Source: Rhodococcus sp. B7740
Lineage (GTDB): Bacteria; Actinomycetota; Actinomycetes; Mycobacteriales; Mycobacteriaceae
Direction of reading: 5' to 3'
DNA length: 64,000 nt
NCBI RefSeq assembly: GCF_000954115.1
Contig: NZ_CP010797.1
Span: 1,178,001 to 1,242,000 of the forward strand
In this document: positions 61,226 through 63,893 of the stretch, piece by piece
How positions within the stretch are numbered: position 1 is the first letter of the stretch
Layout of the letters: each line of letters starts with the position of its first letter
Notes under the pieces: model-generated
Databases searched by the model: none
Seen by the model: only the letters and a program-made list of their open reading frames with translations
What the model was told of the DNA's origin: nothing
Translations under genes and position numbers: made by a program

Positions 61226-61341
61226 CGGAGCACATCGCCGTAGAAGGAAACGAGATCGCAACGCGGCATGCGAAGCTAAGGCCGACAGTGGCGGTATCGG
61301 TTCGCATCACAGATGCGCGCTCGGCGGAGGGGAACTCCAGC

Positions 61342-62259
61342 ATGACGTTCAGAGAAGGCTCGCAAACGACACCAGGCCGAGTCTCCGTCGGTGGCAGCGG
61401 AGGGGGTGGCGGACGCGGCAAGTTGGCGATCGGCGGCGGCGCGGGTGGACTGGTCGTCATCGTCCTTGCCCTGCTGTTCGGCGGCGATCCCGGCGCGATC
61501 CTGAACCAGATCAGCGGCGGCGACAGTTCCGCCGGCCAGAACGACTCCGGGTCGTCCGGAACGCTCGACTGTGACGTCACAGAGGCGAACAGCAACGTCG
61601 ACTGCCGGGTGGATTTCACGGTGGCGAGCCTCGATACCGTATGGGAATCGCAGCTGCAATCGCAGACCGGCGTCGCCTACGTCCAGCCGGCCGTGAGATT
61701 GTTCTCCGGTTCGACCGGCACCGGCTGCGGCAACGCCACCAGCGCCGTCGGGCCGTTCTACTGCCCGGCCGATTCCACCGCCTACTTCGACACGAGCTTC
61801 TTCCAAGTACTCGTCGACCAGTTCGGCTCCAGCGGCGGACCACTCGCACAGGAATACGTGGTGGCGCACGAGATCGGCCACCACATCCAGAATCAGCTGG
61901 GCGATATCGGACGCGCGCAGGCCGATCCCCAAGGACCCGAGTCCGGTGGCGTCAAGGTGGAGTTGCAGGCCGACTGCTACGCGGGAATCTGGGCGCACTA
62001 CGCAGCCGAGACGGTCGACCCGAAAACTGGAGTCCCCTTCCTCGAGCCGCTGACCGCTACCGACATCGACGACGCACTCTCGGCGGCGTCGTCGGTGGGC
62101 GACGACCGCATCCAGCAGGCATCCACCGGCCGCGTCAACCCCGAGGGTTGGACGCACGGTTCTTCTGCGCAGCGTCAGGCATGGTTCACCGCGGGCTACG
62201 AAACCGGACAGGTGGCGGCCTGCGACACGTTCTCGGCACGCGACCTGGACAACCCCTGA
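61342..62259 (+). CDS. YpfJ-type neutral zinc metallopeptidase
   Basis: 305 residues from ATG 61342, preceded by GGAGGGGAACTCC. A Gly-rich basic N terminus, one membrane helix (about 30-48) and an extracellular domain with zinc motif HEIGHHIQ (about 172-179) and a downstream ELQADCYAG segment supplying the third ligand. Several cysteines (CDV, DCR, GCG, YCPAD) suggest disulphides outside the membrane. Substrate unknown; Rv2575-like, from memory. It converges on the radical SAM gene with a 9-nt gap. Confidence 0.92.
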
Positions 62260-62268
62260 TCATCCAGC

Positions 62269-63297
62269 TCAGAACAGGGTGAGAGCCGGCCCCGAGGTCA
62301 CCGGTGCTCGGGGTTCGGCAGGCTCGTTGGCGGGCAGCGAGCGGGTCTGCTCGGCGGCGAACCCGTAGGTGTCGAGCAGCGGATCGATTCTCGCTTTGAG
62401 CCACTGCTTGTACTCAGGAGTCACATAGGCCCCGTGTCCGTAGAGCTGACGGTACCGACGCACCAACGCGGGGTGTTCCCTCACCAGCCAGCTCATGTAC
62501 CAGTCCTTGGTGCTCGAACGCAGATGCATCGGCAGCGCCGTCACGGTTGTCGCACCTGCCTCTGCCAGGGCGCCGATGAGGCCGTCCAACTGCTTGGCCC
62601 CGTCGGTGAGAAAGGGAATCACCGGTGCCACCAGAACGCCGCAGTCCAGGCCCGCGTCGCGGACCGCACGAACGAGATCCAATCGCGCTCGTGGACTGGG
62701 GGTTCCGGGCTCGAGCTGCTTCTGCAGGTCGGCATCGTGAATGGCCAGGCTGATGCTCACCTGCACCTCCACCTGCTGCGCAGCCAGCGTCAACAGGGGC
62801 AGATCACGCCGCAGCAGTGTGCCCTTGGTGAGAATGGAGAACGGCGTCCCGGATTCGGCCAATGCTCGAATGATCCCCGGCATCAACCGATATCGCCCTT
62901 CCGCGCGCTGATAGGGGTCGGTGTTGGTACCGAGCGCCACCGGCTCCCGTTTCCACGACCGGCGCGCGAGTTCCTTGCGCAGTACCGCAGCAACGTTCGT
63001 CTTCACGACGATCTGCGAGTCGAAGTCGTTGCCGGAGTCCAGATCCAGATATTCGTGCGTCGGGCGGGCGAAGCAGTATCGACATGCGTGCGAGCACCCG
63101 CGCATCGGATTGACGGTCCACGAGAAGGGCACCTGAGATTCGCTCGGCACTTCGTTCAGAGCGCTCTTGCACAACACTTCGTGGAAGGTGATGCCCTCGA
63201 ACTCGGGCGTCTGGACGCTGCGGACCAGTCCCGATCGCTCGAGCCCCGGTAGCGCCCCGTCGTCCGCGGCATCGAGAGTCTGGCCGGCCCATCGCAT
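62269..63297 (-). CDS. Radical SAM protein, Rv2578c/SplB-like
   Basis: 342 residues from ATG 63297 (GTG 63303 also possible). Iron-sulphur motif CSHACRYC (CX3CX2C) in GCSHACRYCFARPTHEYL, then VALGTNTDPYQRAEGRYRLMPGII and SILTKGTLLRRD, as in the Rv2578c branch near spore-photoproduct lyases. Some mycobacterial members carry an intein in this gene; here the motif is uninterrupted. An SOS box lies 8 nt upstream, so it should be induced by DNA damage. Reaction not known. Confidence 0.9.
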   Translation of the reverse strand: MRWAGQTLDAADDGALPGLERSGLVRSVQTPEFEGITFHEVLCKSALNEVPSESQVPFSWTVNPMRGCSHACRYCFARPTHEYLDLDSGNDFDSQIVVKTNVAAVLRKELARRSWKREPVALGTNTDPYQRAEGRYRLMPGIIRALAESGTPFSILTKGTLLRRDLPLLTLAAQQVEVQVSISLAIHDADLQKQLEPGTPSPRARLDLVRAVRDAGLDCGVLVAPVIPFLTDGAKQLDGLIGALAEAGATTVTALPMHLRSSTKDWYMSWLVREHPALVRRYRQLYGHGAYVTPEYKQWLKARIDPLLDTYGFAAEQTRSLPANEPAEPRAPVTSGPALTLF

Positions 63298-63305
63298 GCA
63301 CACAG

Positions 63306-63321
63306 TCGAACATTTGTTCTA
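63306..63321 (-). promoter_or_regulatory. LexA/SOS box
   Basis: TAGAACAAATGTTCGA on the minus strand (TCGAACATTTGTTCTA on the plus) matches the actinobacterial consensus TCGAAC-N4-GTTCGA at all but one position, with a perfect GAAC-N4-GTTC core. Confidence 0.8.
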
Positions 63322-63422
63322 TGTCGTGTCAAGGGCGGCTCTCCCCCGCGGATCCCCGCTCGGGCGTGGTCACCGGAAGGCGATACCGTAGGCCCCCAAC
63401 CGATCCTAGGAGTGCACCACAA

Positions 63423-63893
63423 GTGACCGCCCCGAACACACCGACCCTCGAGCCGATTCTGCGTCTCGGCCTCACCCTCGGACCGGGAATCGACATCGGC
63501 TCGGTGCCGGCCGGTGAGCGGGTGGTCACCACCGTGCTCGGCGGCGCAGCTCCAGGCCCCGACATCGAGGGCACCCTCGCCGCCGGATCGACCGTCGTCA
63601 GCGTGACGCGGCCCGACGGATGCACCGAGTTCAGCACCGACCTCGTCCTGGAGTTGGCAACCGGCGGTTATCTCTCGCTCGACTACCGCGGAGTTCAGTT
63701 CGGGCCGGCCGAGGTCATCGACGCTCTGAACGATCCCGAGCGTGAGGTGGACCCCGCCACGTACTACTTCCGCGGCACCCTGCGCGTGTCGACCGCGGTC
63801 CCGAAGTTCACCTATCTCAACCGTGCGCTCGTCGTCACGTCCGGATCTCGGTCGGCCGAAGCCGTCGTGCTCGACGCATTCCTGGTCACCTGA
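63423..63893 (+). CDS. DUF3237-domain protein
   Basis: 156 residues from GTG 63423, with CTAGGAGTGCACCACAA upstream. A beta-barrel-like sequence typical of DUF3237 (ELATGGYLSLDYRGVQFGPAEVI, YYFRGTLRVSTAVPKFTYLNRALVV). No known function. It points away from the radical SAM gene and shares its intergenic region (126 nt), but the SOS box is closer to the other gene. Converges on the fragment at 63901. Confidence 0.82.
   Translation: MTAPNTPTLEPILRLGLTLGPGIDIGSVPAGERVVTTVLGGAAPGPDIEGTLAAGSTVVSVTRPDGCTEFSTDLVLELATGGYLSLDYRGVQFGPAEVIDALNDPEREVDPATYYFRGTLRVSTAVPKFTYLNRALVVTSGSRSAEAVVLDAFLVT

Follow-up and report, generated by a model that had tools for sequence, protein, structure and literature searches.

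A palindromic 16-mer lies between two divergent genes, a radical SAM gene (-) and a DUF3237 gene (+), in the 64,000-nucleotide stretch of Rhodococcus sp. B7740 DNA analysed here (the window). The locus raises the question of whether this 16-mer is an operator of LexA, which of the two genes it would serve, and on what the encoded enzyme acts. The sequence at 63306-63321 is TCGAACATTTGTTCTA on the plus strand and TAGAACAAATGTTCGA when read on the gene strand. It differs from the consensus TCGAACNNNNGTTCGA (TCGAAC-N4-GTTCGA) by one mismatch at an outer position, and a gap of 8 bases (63298-63305) separates it from the ATG at 63297-63295. The original prediction of a near-consensus SOS box 8 nt before the start codon is thus confirmed on both points. 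The features of the locus are as follows.

61288-62259, plus strand: YpfJ-like zinc metallopeptidase gene, convergent (NF050010; context)
62269-63297, minus strand: Rv2578c-family radical SAM protein of 342 aa (NF038135, PF04055, alignment)
63295-63297, minus strand: ATG start codon, 6 nt past the -10, with the predicted transcription start at or adjoining it
63304-63309, minus strand: TCGACT, an inferred -10 element that shares bases with the right arm of the box (from conservation and spacing)
63306-63321, minus strand: predicted LexA operator (SOS box; from the sequence match and conservation in place)
63327-63332, minus strand: putative -35 element TTGACA, which precedes the box by 5 nt (from the anchored composition of 74 homologues)
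63423-63893, plus strand: DUF3237 gene, divergent (PF11578; context, probably not a target)

The start codon is supported by homologues that align from its methionine (MRW...), and for the same reason the GTG at 63303, to which the list of open reading frames extends the gene, is an unlikely start.

A lone match to the 16-mer, considered without its conservation, is unremarkable and proves little, because such sequences also fall within genes. The window contains 17 TCGAAC-N4-GTTCGA sites with up to two mismatches (5.2 expected in shuffled sequences) and three with up to one. The host genome has approximately 250 strand-wise matches to the looser pattern TCGAACNNNNGTTCNA at one mismatch or fewer, and many of the genomic near-matches inspected are intragenic.

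Actinobacterial homologues provide the decisive evidence. Within a 230-nt upstream window, the best site has two or fewer mismatches in 76 of 80 homologues (0, 1, and 2 mismatches in 29, 34, and 13, respectively), compared to 62 of 2160 control windows from the same loci (2.9%). The exact core GAACN4GTTC occurs in the last 100 nt of 48 of the 80 upstream regions versus 8 of 5129 control windows. A further family-search set of 116 Actinomycetia genomes from 15 families has two or fewer mismatches in 93 and three or fewer in 115; the two sets overlap partly and together comprise about 190 upstream regions. In both sets, Mycobacterium relatives have mostly perfect boxes. The three-mismatch cases belong mostly to one Streptomyces-like family. 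There the box, GGGAACATGTGTTCTA, has its core intact, is located near -46, and precedes a leader that contains a GAGGAGG ribosome site. Some genomes have weaker second copies of the gene, and in 13 of 14 of these a box is again present upstream, at a distance of about 25 nt from an in-frame start. Judged by sequence, nearly all of the actinobacteria checked that have the gene share this arrangement, and the conservation of the box in both position and sequence indicates that it is more than a chance occurrence. The conserved link to DNA damage that had been proposed for this locus is borne out by these counts.

Four Tsukamurella-type loci (L071, L078, L226, and L237) have perfect arms around a 5-nt spacer, such as TCGAACGACGTGTTCGA, and this spacer counts against LexA control. 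The distance between the -35 and -10 elements is still 17 nt in these loci, and in the Tsukamurella-type genome G292 the 5-nt-spacer box is the only TCGAACN{2,7}GTTCGA sequence. The data do not support a change in LexA spacing across the whole genus Tsukamurella, whose recA and lexA retain N4 boxes.

Alignment of the promoters of 74 homologues, anchored on the box, reveals a common layout. With the box occupying positions 0 to 15, TTGAC(A) spans -11 to -6, a T stands at 17 (96%), and the start codon is in most cases at 24. From -11 to -8 the bases are T (96%), T (73%), G (80%), and A or C, and no conserved position was seen upstream of about -13 in these 74 sequences. The shared design is TTGACA-N5-box-(A/C)T-N6-ATG with a -10 hexamer TCGA(A/C)T, and the last T of the Rhodococcus hexamer TCGACT is 96% conserved even though it lies outside the palindrome. 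The distance from TTGACA to TCGA(A/C)T is 17 nt, a standard spacing of sigma-70-type promoters, and the right arm of the box would therefore double as the -10 element. Of 67 pattern-fitting homologues, 48 have 8 nt between box and start codon, 15 have 9 nt, and 4 have 7 nt. The full composite promoter occurs once in the host genome with zero mismatches, at the 63306-63321 site, and control patterns of the composite have no matches in that genome. Since the start codon is located where transcription should begin, a leaderless mRNA is predicted from the radical SAM promoter. The suggestion that LexA would block this promoter agrees with the layout, in which the box overlaps both the spacer and the -10 element, so that predicted LexA binding would obstruct it. 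A PafBC-type promoter, which has the motif TTGTCRGTG-N8-TANNNT, was ruled out by eye; the promoter has TTGACA.

The host genome encodes LexA with two boxes upstream and RecA with one box. The box of host DnaE2, TAGAACAAGTGTTCGA, is one spacer base apart from that of the radical SAM gene, and host DUF222/HNH genes have perfect SOS boxes. Features of an actinobacterial LexA regulon that are present here include an operator-type site at the promoter, encoded LexA and RecA, and boxes at other SOS genes. Four copies of a host gene family have perfect SOS boxes (L007, L010, L012, and L013), of which L007 is DUF222/HNH and the other three were assigned by their similar N-termini. Two other loci, L002 (near 1745) and L003 (near 1650), have perfect or near-perfect SOS boxes that adjoin TTGTCGGTG, a sequence that resembles the PafBC promoter motif.

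Outside Actinobacteria, seven of eight plasmid-borne PA0069-family relatives from Alphaproteobacteria have GTTCN7GTTC upstream, and one Aeromonas relative has CTGTATATATAAACAG just before its start. These are the known LexA boxes of the Alphaproteobacteria and Aeromonas groups, respectively. GTTCN7GTTC was absent from 10.9 kb of control sequence, a rough yardstick made up of downstream, mostly coding parts of the same loci. The PA0069 family (NF033668) shares the core enzyme and a LexA-type box in the local motif with the Rhodococcus gene, whereas the motif itself and the box position differ. Control that is conserved under LexA proteins with differing motifs argues that the job of the enzyme is tied to DNA damage. 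One locus, L238, lies on a record (NZ_AP026896.1) labelled as a 4.9 Mb Aeromonas caviae plasmid, whose size suggests a mislabelled chromosome.

Two other readings of the box itself can be weighed against these data. High-GC sequence rich in TCGA could mimic an SOS box, and the abundance of matches to the looser pattern, many of them inside genes, lends this some force; yet a chance palindrome would hardly keep its place and sequence across some 190 upstream regions while its flanks are unconserved, or be replaced by other LexA motifs at relatives in other groups, and such an origin is scarcely credible. A real box could instead control the DUF3237 gene, as it stands between the two genes, some 100 nt from the DUF3237 start. 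This is very improbable and was rejected: the DUF3237 gene adjoins the radical SAM gene in only 2 of the 80 homologous loci, whereas the box keeps 7-9 nt from the radical SAM start, and the conserved -35 and -10 elements are oriented towards the radical SAM gene. The convergent YpfJ-like metallopeptidase is present in 9 of the 80 loci.

The 16-mer is therefore best read as a functional LexA operator within the promoter of the Rv2578c-family radical SAM gene, which is very probable from the sequence comparisons, and it is almost certain that the enzyme is part of the known DNA-damage response. As long as the DNA is undamaged, a LexA dimer bound to the box would cover the spacer between the -35 and -10 elements as well as the -10 hexamer itself and exclude RNA polymerase. 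After DNA damage, RecA filaments would induce LexA self-cleavage, and the loss of LexA would allow a transcript to begin at the ATG or an adjoining base and to be translated without a leader. The membership of the gene in the DNA-damage regulon, as originally predicted, is supported by the box, its spacing, and its conservation in the homologues.

SOS control of SplB/COG1533-type radical SAM genes is already published for several phyla; the Rhodococcus gene adds a new instance whose promoter is unusually well conserved, and the regulation itself is not new. A radical SAM protein is within the core Gram-positive SOS regulon (PMC7739468), and splB is under SOS control in alpha- and beta-Proteobacteria (PMC3323433) and in Bacteroidetes (PMC8565304). 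In Streptomyces venezuelae, the radical SAM gene vnz_31145 has a LexA ChIP-seq peak and a 20-fold induction by mitomycin C in RNA-seq, and is said to resemble enzymes for the repair of thymine cross-links (PMC9380542). The Rv2578c-family orthologue in S. venezuelae is SVEN_6313, which maps to about 6.89 Mb (PMC12924846), and its chromosome rank and description make it likely that vnz_31145 is the same gene. vnz_31145 is an SplB-like radical SAM gene in the LexA regulon like the Rhodococcus gene, but its reported box TCGACCGTTCGCTC is weaker and located at -61 (PMC9380542), and membership of the same family is indirect. The Streptomyces-like genomes examined conserve a different site, a mismatch that counts against LexA control, as does the lack of an evident fitness cost when prophage Samy inactivates the Streptomyces orthologue (PMC12924846). 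Phage Samy integrates inside this orthologue (PMC12924846), so that the attachment site of a phage lies in an SOS-regulated gene. No paper linking PA0069 to LexA was found in the literature searched, and the papers found on Rv2578c, in a search that covered sources other than M. tuberculosis LexA regulon lists, do not concern LexA. In nearly all actinobacterial members examined, the Rv2578c family (NF038135) has the promoter-embedded SOS box seen here, with no notable difference.

The Rhodococcus protein matches the NF038135 model over its full length at 531 bits (cut-off 430). Its scores for the PA0069 family NF033668 (217 bits) and the intein form NF038136 (536 bits) are under the respective cut-offs of 360 and 700, and the protein has no intein. 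The cluster motif CX3CX2C (Cys68, Cys72, and Cys75) is invariant in 40 sequences. An AlphaFold2 model with a mean pLDDT of 78, in which residues 69-91 near the cluster are poorly modelled, has spore photoproduct lyase (SPL) as its best PDB match (E 3e-6, TM 0.52), followed by lipoyl synthase and MiaB. SPL crystal structures are also the best PDB matches by sequence (E about 0.01). SplB (TIGR04070; PDB 4fhc and related entries) is thus the closest solved structure and shares CX3CX2C and the general fold.

In SPL, Cys140/141 is the hydrogen donor and a tyrosine pair is catalytic, roles that agree with the mutant entries listed among the structural matches. The 40 sequences have no invariant cysteine beyond CX3CX2C, and Cys219 is present in only 32 of them; Cys140/141 has no invariant counterpart by this measure, and the sequence alignments to SPL chains extend over fragments only. 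The first tyrosine of YCY is invariant (Y74), while the residue after the third motif cysteine, the second tyrosine in SplB, is phenylalanine in 37 of 40. A score of 15.1 bits for the SPL model TIGR04070 (cut-off 400), the lack of a further invariant cysteine, and phenylalanine in place of tyrosine together suggest, with moderate confidence, an enzyme that is related to SPL and has different chemistry.

If LexA control is real, the enzyme could still be a true SPL that repairs 5-thyminyl-5,6-dihydrothymine, as its closest matches by sequence and fold are SPL structures and COG1533 members are often annotated as SplB. The profile score, the restriction of invariant cysteines to the radical SAM motif, the phenylalanine, and an RMSD above 4 A in a published comparison of models (PMC12924846) make this improbable. 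A LexA-controlled enzyme whose substrate is not DNA but a protein, tRNA, or metabolite required after damage would fit lipoyl synthase and MiaB as the next structural matches. This is less improbable than a true SPL and is still unlikely, given that SPL is the nearest solved relative and that SplB-like genes elsewhere share their SOS operons with mutagenic polymerases and repair genes (PMC3765255). The preferred reading remains a [4Fe-4S] radical SAM enzyme that probably acts on damaged DNA or nucleotides by non-SPL chemistry.

These results firmly assign a little-understood family of radical SAM enzymes to the DNA-damage response of Actinomycetia, many Mycobacterium species among them, in contrast to a 2026 study whose authors called a DNA repair role of the Streptomyces orthologue speculative (PMC12924846). 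The absence of the SPL residues turns the reaction of the enzyme into a concrete, testable question. A broader reading, held tentatively and somewhat short of an even chance, is that the Rv2578c/PA0069 group is a widespread SOS-induced enzyme with non-SPL lesion repair or nucleotide chemistry, and that in Actinobacteria its promoter forms a conserved leaderless unit, with a single sequence acting both as LexA operator and as -10 element. Matches in six genomes (G176, G228, G267, G007, G091, and G071) have in-frame insertions of about 1 kb, consistent with the intein-containing NF038136, and other radical SAM family members, such as that of G107, have insertions of about 0.45 kb.
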